DNA of 42,839 nt from Phycisphaerales bacterium (lineage in GTDB: Bacteria > Planctomycetota > Phycisphaerae > Phycisphaerales > SM1A02). A program made the translations under genes and the position numbers. Where the stretch lies: NCBI GenBank assembly GCA_014237965.1, contig JABABZ010000005.1, positions 1-42,839 on the forward strand, given 5' to 3'. The number at the start of each line of letters is the position of its first letter. The first letter of the stretch is position 1. This document shows, in pieces, positions 26,981 to 35,140 of this stretch. The notes beneath the pieces are model-generated. The model ran no database searches, was not told where the DNA came from, and was given only the letters and a program-made list of their open reading frames with translations.

Positions 26981-28141
26981 ATGTCTTCCACCCACTCCAT
27001 CGCCCACGAGATTCGCAACGACTTCGGCGTGCCGTTCACCCACCGGCTGCTGTTCGATCGTGACGTGCTCGATCCGGCCAACCCGCTCGTCGATGCGGTG
27101 TTCGAACGCGAGCACGACGACGCCCCGCCAGCGGGGATGATCGTGGTGATCGATCAAGGACTCGCCGACGCTCGACCGGGAATTCAAGAGGCGATTTCAA
27201 AGCGATTTTTCGGATCCGCGCTGCCCGAACTCCGGGAGATCATCCTGATTCCGGGTGGCGAGGCGAGCAAGAACGACCCTGCGATCATCGACCGGATCCT
27301 CGAATCGATCGAACGCCATCGAATCGACCGCCGGTCATATGTCTCGATCTTCGGCGGAGGCGCCGTCCTCGACGCAGCGGGTTTCGCGGCCAGCACGGCG
27401 CATCGCGGAGTCCGCATCGTCCGCTTCGCGAGCACCGTCCTGTCGCAACTCGACGCCGCGATCGGCGTGAAGAACGGCGTGAACCGTTTCGAGAAGAAGA
27501 ACTTCATCGGGTCCTTCGATGTTCCCGTCGCCGTGATCTGTGACGAAGCGATGCTCGATTCCCTCGACCAACGGACCTGGCGAGAAGGTTTCAGCGAAGC
27601 GGTCAAGATCGCCTGCCTTCAAGACGCTTCCTTCTTCGGCTCCATCGCGGACAGCGCCGATCTCATTCGCGAAGGCGATCTGGATGCGGCCCGACCGATC
27701 ATTCGGCGCTGCGCGAAGATGCACCTCGAACACATCGCCAATGGCGGAGATCCCTTCGAACGACTCGAAGCTCGACCGCTCGACTTCGGCCACTGGTCGG
27801 CGCATCGACTCGAATCGATGAGCGGTTTCGATCTGAACCACGGCGAAGCGGTGGCCATCGGAATCTGCCTCGACTCCACCTATTCGCATCTGATCGGTCG
27901 CCTGGACAAGGCGGCATTCGAGCGGATCATCGACGTCATGACGCGACTCGGGCTGCCGATCACCCATCCGCTGCTCTCCGATGACCGACTGATCGCGGGG
28001 CTCGAGGAGTTCCGCGAGCATCTCGGTGGACGTCTGACCATCACGCTCCTCGAGGAGATCGGACGAGGCGTGGATGTGCACGAGATGGACCTCGACCGAG
28101 TCCGCGATGCGATCTCGGTCCTCGACTCGATCGCCGGCTGA
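26981..28141 (+). CDS. eboD: EboD: sugar-phosphate-cyclase/3-dehydroquinate-synthase-like protein
   Basis: A 386-residue member of the 3-dehydroquinate synthase superfamily, with the pattern of the EboD branch. Visible are GGEASKND, FGGGAVLDAAGFAASTAHRG (NAD-binding region), QLDAAIGVKNGVNRFEKKNF, a conserved WREGFSEAVKIA, and the metal His-containing segments LDFGHWSAHRLE and LNHGEAVAIGICLD. Superfamily enzymes cyclise seven-carbon sugar phosphates to cyclitols; EboD's own substrate is not established. No other shikimate-pathway gene is nearby, and the neighbours are ebo genes, which argues against a housekeeping AroB. It is the first gene after the terminator and presumably follows the cluster promoter, though no convincing promoter boxes were found. 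Confidence 0.88.
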   Translation: MSSTHSIAHEIRNDFGVPFTHRLLFDRDVLDPANPLVDAVFEREHDDAPPAGMIVVIDQGLADARPGIQEAISKRFFGSALPELREIILIPGGEASKNDPAIIDRILESIERHRIDRRSYVSIFGGGAVLDAAGFAASTAHRGVRIVRFASTVLSQLDAAIGVKNGVNRFEKKNFIGSFDVPVAVICDEAMLDSLDQRTWREGFSEAVKIACLQDASFFGSIADSADLIREGDLDAARPIIRRCAKMHLEHIANGGDPFERLEARPLDFGHWSAHRLESMSGFDLNHGEAVAIGICLDSTYSHLIGRLDKAAFERIIDVMTRLGLPITHPLLSDDRLIAGLEEFREHLGGRLTITLLEEIGRGVDVHEMDLDRVRDAISVLDSIAG

Positions 28142-28216
28142 CCACCCTTGGTGTTCCGGACTGCTTCCCTCCCATTCCCGACCGTCGATCAAGGCGAGGG
28201 CGGTAGACTCTTGGCC

Positions 28217-28555
28217 ATGCCGAGCAGCCCTCCCCCACTCCCTCTCTCCCGAGCCGCCGTCGTGGATCGGTACTTCCTCGAGCACCGAGCGAAGGTCCTC
28301 GACCTCGCGGCGTTCCTCGATCGAGTCGACCGCGCCAAAGCCGACGCGGCGGATTCCGACGGTGACTTCCGCCTCGACAGCCTCCGTGGTGCGATCGCAC
28401 TGCTGCTCGACGGCGAATCGGATCGAGCGAAGCGGGTGCTCGATCTCATGAGCGACCCGAGCACCGAGCCCATCGACGCGGCCCCGATGAAGGGCGCCAC
28501 GGGCGCGTGGGACGGGTTCAAGACCGAAGCCACACGAGACGGGGAGACCGGCTGA
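28217..28555 (+). CDS. Small helical ebo-cluster protein
   Basis: A 112-residue protein between eboD (76 bp upstream) and eboB, whose start codon shares the A of its stop (TGATG), so the two are coupled. After a Pro-rich start it reads YFLEHRAKVLDLAAFLDRVD, then LRGAIALLLDGESDRAKRVL and LMSDPSTEPIDAAPMKGATG, predicted as two or three amphipathic helices. No catalytic motif is visible and there is no signal peptide. It occupies the place where a small accessory ebo gene such as eboA might be expected, but it is much shorter than the EboA proteins I know and I see no clear resemblance. I cannot name it. Confidence 0.7.
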   Translation: MPSSPPPLPLSRAAVVDRYFLEHRAKVLDLAAFLDRVDRAKADAADSDGDFRLDSLRGAIALLLDGESDRAKRVLDLMSDPSTEPIDAAPMKGATGAWDGFKTEATRDGETG

Positions 28556-29370
28556 TGTACATCGATCCCCACGTCCACATGGTGAGTCGGACCACCGACG
28601 ACTATCAACGCATGGCCCTCGCAGGTTGTGTCGCGATCACCGAGCCCGCTTTCTGGGCCGGGTACGACCGTTCCAGCCCGAAGGGCTTTCACGACTACTT
28701 CTCGGTACTCACGGATACCGAGCCGAAACGAGCGGCGCAATACGGAATCGCTCACCACACCTGGCTCTGCATCAATCCCAAGGAAGCGGAGGATCCGGTC
28801 TTCGCCCGCGAAGTCATCGACATCATCCCGGAGTTCCTGGAGTGCGAAAGCGTGCTCGGAATCGGTGAGATCGGCCTGAACAAGAACAGTCGCAACGAAC
28901 TCGAGATCCTCGAAGCCCATCTCCAGCTGGCCGCCGATCATGACCAGATGGTTCTGGTCCACACGCCGCACCTGGAAGACAAGCGCAAGGGAACGCGTCT
29001 CATCATGGACGCCATCAAGAATCACGGCGTGCTGGATCCGAACCGGGTTCTGATCGACCACGTCGAGGAGCACACCGTCCGAGACGTGCTCGACCGCGGC
29101 TACTGGGCCGGCATGACTCTTTATCCCGACACCAAATGCACGCCGCAGCGAGCCGCCGACATCTTCGAAATGCACGGGACCGATCGACTGTGGATCAACT
29201 CCGCCGGGGACTGGGGCCCCAGCGACCCGCTCGCGGTACCGAAGTGCCGGGACGAAATGCGTCGTCGCGGCCATCTTGAAGCGACCATCCGGAAGGTCTC
29301 TTTCGACAATCCCCTCGAGTTCCTCTCCCAGACGGGCAGGTTCCGAACCGACGTTCAACCGACTCGTTGA
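28555..29370 (+). CDS. eboB: EboB: TatD-like metal-dependent hydrolase
   Basis: A 271-residue amidohydrolase-type TIM barrel beginning MYIDPHVHMVSRTTDD, with the metal-binding HxH at residues 6-8. Further likely ligands are in LGIGEIGLNKNSRNE, LVHTPHLEDKRKGT, VLIDHVEEHTV and INSAGDWGPSD, matching TatD/EboB proteins. The reaction is unknown; TatD relatives hydrolyse phosphodiester or lactone-like bonds. The start at 28555 is set by the TGATG overlap with the preceding small gene. It ends 10 bp before eboE, within one tight transcription unit. The assignment to EboB rests on the sequence together with the surrounding eboD, eboE, eboC and eboF. Confidence 0.88.
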   Translation: MYIDPHVHMVSRTTDDYQRMALAGCVAITEPAFWAGYDRSSPKGFHDYFSVLTDTEPKRAAQYGIAHHTWLCINPKEAEDPVFAREVIDIIPEFLECESVLGIGEIGLNKNSRNELEILEAHLQLAADHDQMVLVHTPHLEDKRKGTRLIMDAIKNHGVLDPNRVLIDHVEEHTVRDVLDRGYWAGMTLYPDTKCTPQRAADIFEMHGTDRLWINSAGDWGPSDPLAVPKCRDEMRRRGHLEATIRKVSFDNPLEFLSQTGRFRTDVQPTR

Positions 29371-29380
29371 ATTCACGGTC

Positions 29381-30592
29381 ATGCTGACCTACTGCACCAA
29401 TGTCCACGCGGGCCGAACACTCGCGGAAACCGAAGCGAACCTCGATCGCTTTGCGCCGCGAGTTCGTGAACTGACCGCCCTCGAGACCGAACCGGATGCT
29501 CCGATCGGACTCGGGCTCTGGCTCTCGGCATCCTCCGCCAGAGAACTCCGAGCCGATGGCGACGTTGCCGGCCTCCGCGACCGCCTCCTGGCCAAAGGCC
29601 TGCAGGTCGTCACCTTCAACGGTTTTCCCTACGGTGACTTTCATGCCGATGTCGTCAAGCACGCGGTCTACGAGCCGCACTGGGCCGACCCGAAGCGCCT
29701 CGAATACACCATCGATCTCGCGAATCTCCTGGTCGATCTTCTGCCGGACGGCACGACCGAAGCCTCCATTTCGACGCTTCCCATCGGCTGGCGGACGTCG
29801 TTCACCAACGAGGGCTGCGGCTGCTCCGTCGGCATGGCCGCCGCTCAACTCGTCGAGGCCGCGAAGGCGCTGCGGGCGATCGAGGATCGAACCGGTATCT
29901 GCATCCATCTCGACCTCGAACCCGAGCCCGGGTGCGTGCTCGACGTGAGCCGGGATGTCGTCGACCTCTTCGAGCAGGCCTTTCGTCCCAGTGACGACAT
30001 CGATCACCGCCGCTATCTCCGGGTCTGCCATGACGTGTGCCATGCGGCGGTCATGTTCGAACCGCAGACCGCGGCCTTGCGGACCTATCGAGCGCATGAA
30101 ATCGGCGTGGGAAAAATCCAGATCTCCTCCGCGATCGAGGTTGATTTCGACGCGATCGACGACGAAGAGGAGCGGGCACGAACCCTCGACGCGTATCGCG
30201 GATTCGTCGAACCCAGGTACCTCCACCAGACGATGATCCGAACCGGCGACGAGCCGCACTTCGACGCCGAGTTCTTCGAGGACCTGCCGATCGCTCTCAA
30301 GAATCGGGCCGAGCATCAAGTCCCGCACGGCCTCTGGCGTACCCACTTCCACGTGCCGATCTTCACCCAGGGCATGAACGGGTGGTCGAGCACTCAAACC
30401 GAAATCGAACGTTGCCTGGCGGCATTTCCGAAGGATCTTCCGCTTCCGCGACTCGAGGTCGAGACGTACGCGTGGGACGTCCTTCCGAACTGCCTCTATG
30501 CCGGCGACGAAGGCCTGGCTGCCGGTATCGCCGAGGAACTTCGATGGCTGCGCGGAACGATCGACTCCATTCGCGATGGAAGCTCCGCATGA
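29381..30592 (+). CDS. eboE: EboE: xylose-isomerase-like TIM-barrel protein
   Basis: A 403-residue protein of the EboE (metabolite traffic) family. It begins MLTYCTNVHAGRTLAETEAN, the typical EboE N-terminus, and continues with GLWLSASSARELRADGDVAG, QVVTFNGFPYGDFHADVVK, ISTLPIGWRTS, IHLDLEPEPGCVLD, VCHDVCHAAVMFEP, GVGKIQISSAIEVDF and HFHVPIFTQG. The His/Glu/Asp set in these strands fits a metal-dependent sugar-isomerase-type barrel. The reaction is not known; cyanobacterial homologues are required for scytonemin-precursor export. The start at 29381 follows eboB after 10 bp, and longer readings lie inside eboB. The stop overlaps the eboC start as ATGA. Confidence 0.92.
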   Translation: MLTYCTNVHAGRTLAETEANLDRFAPRVRELTALETEPDAPIGLGLWLSASSARELRADGDVAGLRDRLLAKGLQVVTFNGFPYGDFHADVVKHAVYEPHWADPKRLEYTIDLANLLVDLLPDGTTEASISTLPIGWRTSFTNEGCGCSVGMAAAQLVEAAKALRAIEDRTGICIHLDLEPEPGCVLDVSRDVVDLFEQAFRPSDDIDHRRYLRVCHDVCHAAVMFEPQTAALRTYRAHEIGVGKIQISSAIEVDFDAIDDEEERARTLDAYRGFVEPRYLHQTMIRTGDEPHFDAEFFEDLPIALKNRAEHQVPHGLWRTHFHVPIFTQGMNGWSSTQTEIERCLAAFPKDLPLPRLEVETYAWDVLPNCLYAGDEGLAAGIAEELRWLRGTIDSIRDGSSA

Positions 30593-31656
30593 GGGCCTGG
30601 CTCGAGATCCTCCGCATCTCGAATTTGCCCACGGTCTGGACGAACGTTCTCGTCGGCGTCGTGCTCTCGATCGCGGTCGCTCGACCATCGAATTCGAGTC
30701 CCGTTGCCGTGCTCATCGCGATCGTCGCCGGCTCGTGTCTCTATCTCGCCGGTATGGTCTTCAACGACGTCTTCGACGTCGAGATCGACCGACGAGAGCG
30801 ACCTGGACGGCCGATTCCCTCGGGAAGAATCGGCCGTGGTGCCGCGACCACGATCGGGGCCGTCCTGCTCGCGATCGGCGTCGGCCTGCCGTGGTTCCAC
30901 GGCGTCATCGCCGGCGGCGTGGCCACGGGCATCGGCGTGATGCTGCTCGCCTACGACGCAATCCACGCTCGTACGGCGTGGAGCGTCCTCCTGATGGGCG
31001 GGTGTCGGGCGGGCCTCTACGTCCTCGGCATGGTGTGCCTCAACGATCCCAGCGGCTCCCCCGCCGACGACGGACTGCTGCTTGCGGTGATCATCGGCGG
31101 CGTCGCCGCGATCCACGTCGCCGCGTTCAGCATGGTGGCCCGCGACGAGGTGACGGCGGCGTCGCGGTGGAAATGCCCGCGGTGCGGATATCCGATCGCC
31201 GAGGATTGCGACATCTGCACGGAGTGCGGAACCGCCTGCGACGCCGACAGCATCGTGGCGATCACCACCGAACGGCTCGGGAAGCGAAGGGGTTGGTACG
31301 GAACCGCGACCCTGATGCTTCTCGCGCCCTTCGTCTTGTTGCTCATCCTCACCGCGATGCTGGGACCGCCGCGATCCGGAGGCCTGTTCCTGCCGACACT
31401 CGTCCTCGCGCTCCTCGGCATCGGTACGTATCTCGTGAATTCGACTCGCCACCTCGCCCGCAATCCGGAGGCGGTCGGTCGATTCGTACTGAGATCCATC
31501 GCGGTGCTCACCCTCTTCGATGCCGGCGTCATGGCGTTCTTCTGGGTGGCGAGCCCGGGCGTGAACGGGCGTAACTTCGCGGGCCTCGGGGTCCTCGCCG
31601 CCATCGCGTGCTTCTTCCTCGTCCGATGGTCCCACCGGCGGATCGCGGGGACCTGA
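30589..31656 (+). CDS. eboC: EboC: UbiA-family prenyltransferase with inserted zinc ribbon
   Basis: A 355-residue integral membrane protein. The first Asp-rich motif is N59-D60-xx-D63-xxx-D67 (NDVFDVEIDRRERPGRPIPSG would continue it), which binds Mg-prenyl diphosphate. The second is weaker, Y122-D123-xx-H126 (AYDAIHART). About eight hydrophobic segments are visible. After the sixth, a hydrophilic loop contains C196-xx-C199 and C210-xx-C213 (plus C207 and C217), a zinc ribbon not normal for UbiA. UbiA enzymes move a prenyl chain onto an aromatic or other acceptor within the membrane. ATGA overlap with eboE fixes the start. A 40-bp gap separates it from a paralogue. Confidence 0.9.
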   Translation: MRAWLEILRISNLPTVWTNVLVGVVLSIAVARPSNSSPVAVLIAIVAGSCLYLAGMVFNDVFDVEIDRRERPGRPIPSGRIGRGAATTIGAVLLAIGVGLPWFHGVIAGGVATGIGVMLLAYDAIHARTAWSVLLMGGCRAGLYVLGMVCLNDPSGSPADDGLLLAVIIGGVAAIHVAAFSMVARDEVTAASRWKCPRCGYPIAEDCDICTECGTACDADSIVAITTERLGKRRGWYGTATLMLLAPFVLLLILTAMLGPPRSGGLFLPTLVLALLGIGTYLVNSTRHLARNPEAVGRFVLRSIAVLTLFDAGVMAFFWVASPGVNGRNFAGLGVLAAIACFFLVRWSHRRIAGT

Positions 31657-31695
31657 GGGAACCGGATCCGGAACCGGATCCGTATGATCGTCCGC

Positions 31696-32733
31696 ATGGG
31701 CCCACGGTTCGATCCCAGTCCGGTCGCAAGCCTTCCCGTCACCTGGGCGAACGTGCTCACCGGCGTCCTGCTCGCGTCGGGGATCCAGGGTGTCGTCGAC
31801 TGGACCGCGACGCTGCTGGTGCTGTCGGCCGCGACCCTTCTCCATCTCGGCGACGTCCGGGCACCCCGGACCGGGGCCGACGACGCGTCCTTCGTCTCCG
31901 GCCGCGGCCTTCTGCTGAGCGTCGCGGCCGCCGCGATCGCGTGGATGATCCGTCCCGAGTGCGGCGTCGTCGCGACGATCTTCGCGATCATCATGGTCTT
32001 CGACGATCTGCGAGGTCGCCGCGGCCTTGCCGGCATCCTCGCCTTCGCGACCCGGCGGACCACGATCTACGCCCTCGGCTTCGCGGCGGCGATTCCGCAG
32101 CCCGTCGACGCGCTCCTCGGTGGCGGTGGCGCCGAGTTCCTCATCGCCTGTCTTCTCCTCACGGTTGTTTACATCCACCTCGTCGGCGCCGGCTTCGTGG
32201 CATGGGGCCGTTTCGATCCGACCTCGCCGACCTGTCCCGAATGCCGGCACCAGGTGCTCGAAGACCAGTCGACCTGCCCCGAATGCGGTTCGCCGTGTGG
32301 AGTGGAGTTCCGGGCGGAACTTGTCCGAGTGACGCAGGGCCGCTATCGAGGCATGCCGCATCGAGTCGCCTACGTGCTCCTCATTCCCTTCCTCGGCTGC
32401 AGCGGCCTTTCAGGATGCCTGACCGCCACACCGCCCGCCGGTCTCGATGTCGGCCAGGCCCTGTACGCAGTCGCCGTGTCCGTGTCGACGGTCGTCGCCC
32501 TCGCAATCGTCCTTCATCGCGCCATTCGTGATCTCGCCGATGTTCCCGACCGACTCCAAAGATTCGTGATCAGGTCGATCTCGGCGCTCGCGCTCTTCGA
32601 CGCCGGACTCATTGCGCTGACCGAAGCACAACTCGGTGGCGTCGCCCTCGGGGCCGCGGGCCTGTGCATCGCGGCGATGTTCGTCACGGCTCACTGGTGG
32701 AACAAGCAGGTACCGGGTCGACCGACCATGTGA
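31696..32733 (+). CDS. EboC paralogue lacking the first Asp-rich motif
   Basis: A 345-residue membrane protein related to EboC directly upstream: both open M-x10-LP..W.NVL.GV.L, which is why I start it at 31696 rather than 31684. It has the same loop zinc ribbon, C180-xx-C183 and C194-xx-C197 (plus C201), and a similar C-terminal end (RFVIRSISALALFDAG against RFVLRSIAVLTLFDAG). The NDxxDxxxD motif is deleted: the segment reads LLHLGDVRAPRTGADDASF. The second motif survives only as FDDLRG. I infer a non-catalytic prenyltransferase-like protein, perhaps a partner or prenyl-lipid binder. It is probably a tandem duplicate that has diverged. Confidence 0.78.
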   Translation: MGPRFDPSPVASLPVTWANVLTGVLLASGIQGVVDWTATLLVLSAATLLHLGDVRAPRTGADDASFVSGRGLLLSVAAAAIAWMIRPECGVVATIFAIIMVFDDLRGRRGLAGILAFATRRTTIYALGFAAAIPQPVDALLGGGGAEFLIACLLLTVVYIHLVGAGFVAWGRFDPTSPTCPECRHQVLEDQSTCPECGSPCGVEFRAELVRVTQGRYRGMPHRVAYVLLIPFLGCSGLSGCLTATPPAGLDVGQALYAVAVSVSTVVALAIVLHRAIRDLADVPDRLQRFVIRSISALALFDAGLIALTEAQLGGVALGAAGLCIAAMFVTAHWWNKQVPGRPTM

Positions 32734-32741
32734 CGTTCTGC

Positions 32742-32773
32742 GGGGGACAGGGCGGCCAGGGGGGGCGGGAGGG
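32742..32773 (+). other. G-rich tract with G-quadruplex potential
   Basis: Five runs of at least three G occur within 32 bases on the plus strand (32742-46, 32750-52, 32759-65, 32767-69, 32771-73), enough for a G-quadruplex in the transcript or non-template strand. It sits in the 173-bp gap before eboF, the largest gap inside the cluster. The rest of the gap shows no clear promoter. Confidence 0.5.
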
Positions 32774-32906
32774 TCGCGATGACGCCGACCCGGATCGAGG
32801 TCGGCGGCGTGAACGAAACGTAGCCGGCGGATGATCGGGCCCGCCTCGGCTCGGCGAGGACTTCGTCGGTGATCGTCGAGGCGCGGGGACGAGTACGATC
32901 CACGTC

Positions 32907-34301
32907 ATGCCCCGTCGCATCGCCATCATCGACCTCGTCGGTCTCTCGCCCGCGCTGATCGGTCCGCACACCCCGGCCATCGCCTCCTTCGCCCGCGAGA
33001 AGGGCGGCGTCCGGACGATGCGACCGACCCTGCCCGCCGTCACCACCAGCGTCCAGACCTCGATGCTCACCGGCGTCGGCCCCGCCGAACACGGCATCGT
33101 CGGCAACGGCTGGATGGATCCCGCATCCGGCGAGGTGGCGCTCTGGAAGCAGTCCGACGGACTGGTTGAGGCCGAGCGCCTCTGGGACACCGCGCGACGT
33201 CGTGATCCCGACGTCACGTGCGCGAACATCTGCTGGTGGTACGCGATGCACACCAGCTGCGACACGGTGGTCACGCCGCGGCCGATCTACAAGGCGGACG
33301 GACGCAAGATCCCGGACTGCCTGACCCAGCCCGCCGATCTCCGTGATCGGCTGACGCGAGCCCTCGGCCCGTTCCCGCTCTTCCGATTCTGGGGACCGGC
33401 GACCGACATCACCAGCACCCGGTGGATCGCCGACGCGGCGATCAAGGTCGAGCGCGACACCACCCCCACCATCACCCTGGTCTACCTCCCCCACCTCGAC
33501 TACGGACTCCAAAAGCTCGGACCGGATCATCCCGAGATCCCCCAGCATCTTCGCGAACTCGACCACGAAGTCGCCCGGCTGCTCGAACACTTCACCAGCC
33601 GCGGCGTCGAACCGATCCTGGTGAGCGAATACGGCATCGTCCCGGTCACCGATGCCGTCGCACCCAACCGGATCCTTCGAGACGCCGGACTCCTCTACTG
33701 GCGGGAGGAACAAGGCCGGGAGATGGTCGATCCCGGTACGTCGGATGCCTTCGCGGTGGCGGATCACCAGGTCGCCCACGTCCGACTCGGTCGGGGCGGA
33801 CACGCCCGGCGCGACGAGATCGCCCAACTGCTCGCCTCCACGCCCGGGGTGGCCGAAGTCCTTGAGGGCGAAGCCCGCGCCACCGCCGGACTCGATCATC
33901 CACGGGCCGGTGACCTGGTCCTGGTGTCCGAACGCGATCGCTGGTTCAGCCACGACTGGTGGCACGACGACGCGAAGATGCCGGACTTCCAGCGCACCGT
34001 CGACATTCACCGCAAGCCGGGCTACGACCCCCGCGAACTCTTCGTCGATCCCGCGATCCGATTCCCGAAACTCGCGATCGGCTCGCGGCTCATCCGCCGC
34101 AAGCTCGGCTTCCGAACCCTGCTCGACGTGATCGCGACCGATCCGACGCTGGTTCGCGGCTCCCACGGTCGCATCGACCAGGGCCTCGGCTGGGACGGCG
34201 TGCTCGTGGCCGACGCCGCGGCGAACCTCGATGACGATTCGGATGGTCGAGTCCCCTGCACCGCCGTCCGCGACCTCGCCCTCGGGACGATGTTCGGATG
34301 A
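32907..34301 (+). CDS. eboF: EboF: AlkP-superfamily phosphodiesterase-like protein
   Basis: A 464-residue nucleotide-pyrophosphatase/phosphodiesterase-type protein. The first metal Asp is D9 (RIAIIDLVG); the nucleophile turn is PAVTTSVQTSMLTG (T46/T47) followed by EHGIVGNGWMDP. A D/H pair is in LVYLPHLDYGLQKLGPDH, and the usual DHG motif is replaced by EYG (LVSEYGIVPV). The C-terminal WFSHDWWHDDAKMPDF and HRKPGYDPRELF are typical of EboF-type proteins. It would hydrolyse a phosphate diester or monoester of the pathway intermediate. There is no signal peptide, so it is predicted to be cytoplasmic. ATGA overlap joins it to the next gene. The 173-bp gap upstream may hold its own promoter. Confidence 0.85.
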   Translation: MPRRIAIIDLVGLSPALIGPHTPAIASFAREKGGVRTMRPTLPAVTTSVQTSMLTGVGPAEHGIVGNGWMDPASGEVALWKQSDGLVEAERLWDTARRRDPDVTCANICWWYAMHTSCDTVVTPRPIYKADGRKIPDCLTQPADLRDRLTRALGPFPLFRFWGPATDITSTRWIADAAIKVERDTTPTITLVYLPHLDYGLQKLGPDHPEIPQHLRELDHEVARLLEHFTSRGVEPILVSEYGIVPVTDAVAPNRILRDAGLLYWREEQGREMVDPGTSDAFAVADHQVAHVRLGRGGHARRDEIAQLLASTPGVAEVLEGEARATAGLDHPRAGDLVLVSERDRWFSHDWWHDDAKMPDFQRTVDIHRKPGYDPRELFVDPAIRFPKLAIGSRLIRRKLGFRTLLDVIATDPTLVRGSHGRIDQGLGWDGVLVADAAANLDDDSDGRVPCTAVRDLALGTMFG

Positions 34302-35140
34302 GCGAGCTCGATCATCTGGCCTGCCGGTCCTGTGGTCAGATCCTCGACGCGACACCATGTCCCGAATGCGGTGCCGAAGTCGCGGTTCGAATCGACCCCG
34401 AGTCGGATACGCATCCGCTCGCTCGGTCGATTCCCACCCTCGCCGTGATCGCCTTCGCCGTGGCGGTTCTGGTGTTGGTCGAACGAAGCGCGATGTTCTT
34501 CATCGGGGCGGGCACCGTCACGACCATCGAGTTCTTCAGGATCGAGACCTGGGTCGAGCCCATCGGCCGATCGCTGGTCGACCTGGGAATGATCTCGGTC
34601 GCCGTCGCCTTGCTGCTTGATCGACGCTCGAGCGGTGGACGCCGCATCGCCCTCTTCCTGACCACCCTGCCCGCCCTGATGATCCTGGTGGTCAGTCTTG
34701 GAGACGCGATCTACCGGCTCTTCGTCGCCTGGAAGGTCTGGGGAGACGGACCGGAGCTCCCATTTGCATTCGAACTGGCCGAACTCGCCTTACGATTCGC
34801 GAGCGGTCGCGCCCTGTTCCGAGCGATCGCGATCGTACTCCTCGGCGTCGCACTTCTTCAGGCGCGACGATCCTGGCCGGGTCGTTCAGGCGGCCGGGCG
34901 ATGATGGCAGGTCTGGTCGCCCTGGCCCTGCCGCCGACCCTCCTGACGATCGCCGCGACCCCGTCCATCTGGGCGATGGTGGAGTCGTACCCCGATGCAC
35001 GGACGATTCTGAGGGTTCTCTGGCTCTCGCCGGCGCTCTTCGGTTCGGCGGCGATGCTCGCCGGCGCGATGCGATGGCGGGCCCAGCAATCGAGCCTGCT
35101 TCGAGCCGTGGGATCGAATCCATCCGATCGCGGGCGGTGA
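34298..35140 (+). CDS. Zinc-ribbon membrane protein coupled to eboF
   Basis: A 280-residue protein whose start overlaps the eboF stop (ATGA). The first 25 residues hold a zinc ribbon, C9-xx-C12 and C21-xx-C24 (CPEC). Hydrophobic segments follow at about 45-62, 90-110, 120-138, 180-197, 208-226 and 240-258, so it is a polytopic membrane protein. The lumenal or cytoplasmic loops carry no motif I recognise. The same CxxC...CPEC ribbon style occurs in both EboC copies, which suggests a shared partner or common origin of that module. Function unknown. Confidence 0.72.
   Translation: MSELDHLACRSCGQILDATPCPECGAEVAVRIDPESDTHPLARSIPTLAVIAFAVAVLVLVERSAMFFIGAGTVTTIEFFRIETWVEPIGRSLVDLGMISVAVALLLDRRSSGGRRIALFLTTLPALMILVVSLGDAIYRLFVAWKVWGDGPELPFAFELAELALRFASGRALFRAIAIVLLGVALLQARRSWPGRSGGRAMMAGLVALALPPTLLTIAATPSIWAMVESYPDARTILRVLWLSPALFGSAAMLAGAMRWRAQQSSLLRAVGSNPSDRGR

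Follow-up and report, generated by a model that had tools for sequence, protein, structure and literature searches.

In a genus of marine planctomycete-type bacteria, eboC (here C1), the gene of a UbiA-superfamily prenyltransferase, is accompanied by a downstream paralogue, here called C2, whose product appears from its sequence to be a retained pseudo-prenyltransferase, though one species has discarded it. We reached this reading because both motifs of EboC are gone from C2 and the gene is under purifying selection in most species of the genus. A putative UbiA-superfamily pseudoenzyme in an ebo cluster is new here: our search of the open-access literature found no earlier report of it, no published report of UbiA pseudoenzymes or inactive UbiA paralogues in general, and no publication describing a zinc ribbon in a UbiA protein. 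The ebo genes pose a puzzle in that knock-outs point to metabolite export and the enzymes resemble a biosynthetic pathway. A catalytically dead EboC that has been retained would set apart what the UbiA fold does as a binder or scaffold from its chemistry, and makes it testable whether the EboC fold matters beyond prenyl transfer.

A tandem pair of UbiA-type genes in a complete ebo cluster

The window, that is, the whole stretch of 42,839 nucleotides that was analysed, lies on a contig of a 3.0-Mb genome and carries a complete ebo cluster with all genes in one direction, in the order eboD, eboA, eboB, eboE, eboC (C1), C2 and eboF:

26981..28141, + strand: eboD, 3-dehydroquinate-synthase-like (PF01761, 5e-32; PF24621, 4e-29; NF004852 (PRK06203) above cut-off)
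28148..28555, + strand: eboA candidate, from its position and its conservation at the same place in relatives; no family match in Pfam or NCBIfam
28555..29370, + strand: eboB, TatD-like hydrolase (PF01026, 2e-8)
29381..30592, + strand: eboE, TIM-barrel metabolite traffic protein (NF035939, 2e-120, above the curated cut-off)
30589..31656, + strand: eboC (C1), UbiA-superfamily prenyltransferase with an inserted zinc ribbon (PF01040, 1e-20; NF035940, 2.9e-39)
31684..32733, + strand: C2, putative pseudo-EboC paralogue of 349 aa with about nine hydrophobic segments and a zinc ribbon
32907..34301, + strand: eboF, type I phosphodiesterase family (PF01663, 3e-55)

A sequence-only reading of this DNA had placed a tandem UbiA-type pair at 30589-32733, and both open reading frames are found there. 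The start codon of C1 overlaps the end of eboE, and C1 and C2 are separated by 27 nt and lie in the identical frame on the + strand.

Assignment of C1 as EboC

The upstream copy was said to keep N59-D60-xx-D63-xxx-D67, and NDxxDxxxD was indeed observed at C1 residues 59-67. The conserved features of C1 are:

30763..30789, + strand: motif 1, N59-D60-VF-D63-VEI-D67, invariant in 33/33 EboC rows
31006..31008, + strand: R140, invariant EboC Arg (33/33 EboC rows, 6/6 C2 rows)
31141..31149, + strand: R185-D186-E187, the EboC form of the second motif (A-R-x-E); E187 in 33/33 and R185 in 29/33 EboC rows
31174..31227, + strand: zinc ribbon CPRC...CTEC, from the sequence and from sub-cutoff Zn-ribbon matches

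The 33 EboC sequences used for comparison come from Planctomycetota, and more than half of them were picked by the motif-1 pattern, so that conservation of motif 1 is built in for these rows; the motif is also present in the 14 rows that were not picked in this way, and E187 never was a selection criterion. C1 is identified as the predicted EboC by its PF01040 match, motif 1, A-R-x-E and its place in the ebo cluster. Its score against the EboC model NF035940 (E 2.9e-39) stays below the curated cut-off of 250 bits because the alignment covers just the part before the zinc ribbon. Previous work has demonstrated prenyltransferase activity for Ubi-297 homologues, and Ubi-297, itself a homologue of EboC, farnesylates quinoline-type aromatics (PMC9235831). 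C1 R140 is probably the counterpart of the Arg assigned to the acceptor side in Nostoc EboC and in Ubi-297.

In many Phycisphaerae, EboC carries a four-cysteine zinc ribbon right after the second motif, that is, in the active-site cap loop. It was also seen in L050, L052, L055, L057, L062 and L066, and was absent from Pirellulales-type rows and from the family members L053, L059, L061 and L063.

C2 is homologous to EboC over its full length

BLAST aligned C2 with C1 end to end, with 26% identity over 356 columns (E 5e-20), far above chance, and hhalign matched C2 to EboC of its own genus and of genus g148 (99.9%, E 1e-36, 328 columns). The two copies had been described as aligning at both ends; the ends do align, and the identity also spans the middle, where a four-cysteine zinc ribbon is located at the equivalent place in C1 and C2, directly after the second motif of EboC. 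Hydropathy analysis showed nine peaks in each protein. C2 resembles EboC and Ubi-297 in its full-length homology, its position in an ebo cluster, the invariant Arg and the pattern of hydrophobic helices, but differs from them in being devoid of motif 1 (NDxxDxxxD) and of A-R-x-E and in being unmatched by the models NF035940 and PF01040; no UbiA match to C2 was found in Pfam or NCBIfam, both models being absent at E 1. When the C2 profile was searched against PDB sequences, only chance zinc-ribbon matches emerged.

Structure models were computed from shallow alignments, that of C2 from eight rows including C1 (window plus L001-L003). The C2 model was weak (pLDDT 52), and its top 11 PDB matches were all UbiA proteins in both programs (Z 12.4-16.3), the next unrelated structure reaching a Z of 10.7. 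The best match was a DGGGP synthase (Foldseek probability 1.00, E 0.006; VIA-align Z 16.3, 243-244 residues). Archaeal DGGGP synthase (PDB 7bpu, 6m31) and archaeal UbiA homologues (4od4, 4tq3), which gave the best matches (Z 13-16), are active enzymes with Asp-rich motifs, whereas C2 has a central zinc ribbon and no such motifs. C1 matches 6m31 by sequence.

Both EboC motifs are lost from C2

The corresponding features of C2 are:

31849..31905, + strand: loop replacing motif 1, residues 56-74; motif absent, sequence unconserved
32056..32058, + strand: R125, equivalent of C1 R140 and the chief polar position, among those invariant in EboC, that C2 retains (6/6 C2 rows)
32197..32223, + strand: C2-specific signature VAWGRFDPT, residues 172-180, invariant, at the place of EboC motif 2
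32233..32286, + strand: zinc ribbon CPEC...CPEC, cysteines invariant

NDxxDxxxD and the following ERPxRPIPSGR are present in 33/33 EboC rows and absent from 6/6 C2 rows. C1 residues N59, D60, D67, E70, R71 and P72 are all missing from C2, P77 is replaced by V or I, and D63 is matched in 5/6 C2 rows, the exception being that of genome G054. The sequence-only reading had the segment that holds the motif deleted, which is right as far as the motif goes, but the loop is partly deleted and partly replaced by unrelated, unconserved sequence, which leaves it, on balance, about 17 residues shorter in the window copy and 13 shorter in that of G054. Loss of the second EboC motif, a point absent from that reading, is equally consistent among the orthologues: A-R-x-E has become A-W-G-R, with W in place of R185 and R in place of E187 in 6/6 C2 rows. 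With motif 1 and A-R-x-E gone in all C2 orthologues, the downstream copy does look catalytically dead, as had been proposed. An alternative Asp-rich motif, which according to the same reading might have left C2 active, is not conserved in the C2 sequences: no conserved DxxD-type motif was found in the six orthologue rows.

Residues 61-75 of C2, in the motif-1 loop, are the least conserved interior part of the protein (7% invariant). VAWGRFDPT is retained in G054 despite an overall identity of 52%, and ties as the longest invariant run of C2, the other such run being located in the zinc ribbon. Because the motif-1 loop is this variable while VAWGRFDPT is invariant, constraint appears to have shifted from motif 1 to the new motif-2 loop, and C2 would be more than an EboC with a hole.

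C2 is restricted to one genus

C2 was detected in six of the eight genomes of the genus, one of these C2 copies and one C1 being cut by contig ends, and is separated from C1 by a spacer of 27 nt, once 21 nt. Genome G099 carries an obvious pseudogene remnant of C2 in three collinear pieces, interrupted by an in-frame TAG and lacking large internal parts, which is 65% and 59% identical at its two ends to C2 of G054. In the eighth genome (68% complete) neither C2 nor a remnant was seen. No C2 was found in the three genomes of genus g148, which has the next most similar EboC; eboF directly follows eboC in two of them, and the third has a long open reading frame in between. No further C2 turned up when genomes of the order (301), the family (181) and the class (397) were searched. 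Found in no more than one genus, the C1-C2 pair does not characterise EboC in general. C2 is dispensable, having been lost in one species and being absent from g148, whose EboC is next in similarity. As for conservation of the pair under purifying selection across relatives, on which the sequence-only reading had let its interpretation depend, this holds in one genus and the pair was not found outside it.

The weak matches that were inspected in genus g2 (G060, G162, G279) and elsewhere had only the zinc ribbon in common with C2, others being EboC itself, and a 1.1-kb gap after EboC in G326 contained no C2-like open reading frame. The 4.3-kb stretch between eboC and eboF in the g148 genome G311 (L075:1262-5581) contains one very long open reading frame that resembles, by eye, two sulfatases and a calcium-binding middle part.

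C2 evolves under purifying selection

Omega was estimated with a pairwise codon model, in which dS values >2 are saturated and unreliable. C2 omega ranged from 0.10 to 0.22, with 0.085 in one saturated pair, and C1 omega from 0.09 to 0.18 among close species, with 0.26 in one very close pair; where both genes were compared between one and the same two genomes (G000-G063), omega was 0.140 for C1 and 0.129 for C2. Every C2 pair fitted worse with omega=1, the cost being 21-74 log units. In a neutral simulation, copies without an in-frame stop amounted to 15%, 5% and 2% at 0.1, 0.2 and 0.3 substitutions per site. Decay under way, which had been offered as one explanation of the pair, is not the general state of C2, because omega is low with an open frame in six species, omega=1 is rejected and open frames are unlikely under neutrality. 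It does describe G099, which holds a broken remnant only, but not the other six copies, which have open frames and are under purifying selection.

Duplication and recombination within the genus

In the tree, the C2 stem measures about 2.4 changes per site, compared to 0.6 for C1 of the genus, and C2 would have passed through a fast phase after duplication before coming under constraint. The tree places C2 weakly beside EboC of genus g148, and a topology that unites all C1 and C2 of the genus is borderline (p-AU 0.04); the branches involved are long.

Identity along the ebo cluster (28555-34301 and L069-L074) forms a recombination mosaic within the genus, with breakpoints inside eboC. Genomes G054 and G099 resemble each other closely in eboE and eboF, yet the identity of their C1 proteins is only 52% in the N-half and 46% in the C-half. 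Between G054 and G063, the difference at fourfold sites is 0.12 in the first half of C1, 0.45 in the second half and 0.51 in C2, and the two C2 proteins are only 50% identical. Because G054 joins C1 halves of differing divergence to a diverged C2, C1 and C2 are not strictly co-inherited, and such recombined haplotypes would argue mildly against a strictly co-evolved, tightly matched dimer. Identity of eboB across the genus is 93-99% in the pairs compared. The gene eboF occurs in two allele classes, with 81% identity between and 97% within classes, and divergence within the genus also marks eboE in G302 and eboC in G099.

Possible roles of C2

Previous work in Nostoc examined five ebo genes one at a time and found each to be required if the scytonemin monomer is to be exported; it also proposed an EboCAB complex anchored in the membrane (PMC6282210). 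We see an about even chance that C2 is a duplicated EboC turned into a non-catalytic accessory subunit of the Ebo machinery, probably in a hetero-oligomer with EboC. Its place immediately after eboC within a complete ebo cluster supports an accessory role, and a non-catalytic subunit is favoured because of this co-location, the conserved zinc ribbon and loop signature, and the kept Arg. The more specific proposal that C2 is a true UbiA pseudoenzyme, a dead paralogue serving as a dedicated non-catalytic subunit or ligand-binder of the Ebo export machinery with VAWGRFDPT in the active-site cap loop, falls just short of even.

Given what is known of UbiA structures, and with both motifs lost, C2 should be unable to bind Mg-prenyl-diphosphate, and because the Mg/diphosphate site is gone it would perform no prenyl transfer. 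It would remain in the membrane as a UbiA-like bundle with the zinc ribbon on the motif (cytoplasmic) side. There it would most likely use the retained Arg to hold a substrate, whether aromatic or prenylated, or else organise EboC and the soluble Ebo proteins. C1 and C2 may well form a complex. A model of the two as one fused chain, with TGA read as Trp, had a pLDDT of 36 and was uninterpretable for any interface. Membrane prenyltransferases can form heteromers, and the hop complex, as cited in PMC11133429 (Li 2015), is a precedent for two UbiA-type proteins acting jointly; UBIAD1 binds HMGCR according to the title of PDB 8djk, a precedent for a UbiA fold acting via protein binding, although the partner HMGCR is unrelated. 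Against this, the long C2 stem is as compatible with a change of role as with a part in assembly. Unlike C2, both hop proteins carry Asp-rich motifs and UBIAD1 is also an active enzyme; among soluble prenyl-chain synthases, inactive subunits are well known.

Alternatively, C2 might act independently of C1 as a flippase-like membrane carrier of UbiA fold that moves a prenylated Ebo product across or into the membrane. Such a carrier would suit the requirement of Ebo genes for metabolite export in Nostoc, the loss of the diphosphate site with the invariant Arg kept and a new invariant loop signature gained, and the recombination between C1 and C2 haplotypes, which fits a separate function. However, C2 is genus-restricted, ebo clusters elsewhere work without it, and no transporter similarity was found in Pfam, NCBIfam or the PDB sequence search, so that we regard this explanation as unlikely, if worth keeping in mind. 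We give still less credit to C2 being a duplicate on its way out, without important function. The broken G099 remnant with its TAG and large internal deletions, the very long stem branch and the C2 of G054, far more diverged from other C2 than is the N-half of its C1, are compatible with such a fate, but six frames are open, with omega (0.10-0.22) as in C1 and at distances where this is improbable under neutrality, and the zinc-ribbon cysteines and VAWGRFDPT are invariant.

That C2 has remained enzymatic, using another metal site or a chemistry without diphosphate binding, is decidedly improbable. D107, R112, R113, R124, R125, R176 and D178 are strongly conserved, and some conserved polar positions of C2 coincide with conserved polar positions of EboC, but C2 has no conserved DxxD-type motif, its motif-1 loop is unconserved and both EboC motifs are lost, inspection of the pocket being beyond the weak model (pLDDT 52). 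Readthrough of the TGA into a single fused protein with an internal pseudo-dimer is hardly credible: C1 and C2 do share a frame in 6/6 genomes, with a stop that is always TGA and no other in-frame stop in the spacer (stop and spacer at 31654-31683 in the window), but an open GC-rich spacer of 7-9 codons needs no explanation beyond chance, C2 starts at a conserved ATG of its own and the spacer sequence is unconserved, and the shared frame across one TGA is likely a coincidence.

A further membrane protein with an N-terminal zinc ribbon, without a curated family match, is encoded at 34298-35140 and overlaps the stop of eboF; its zinc ribbon was also matched just 3' of eboF in G054.
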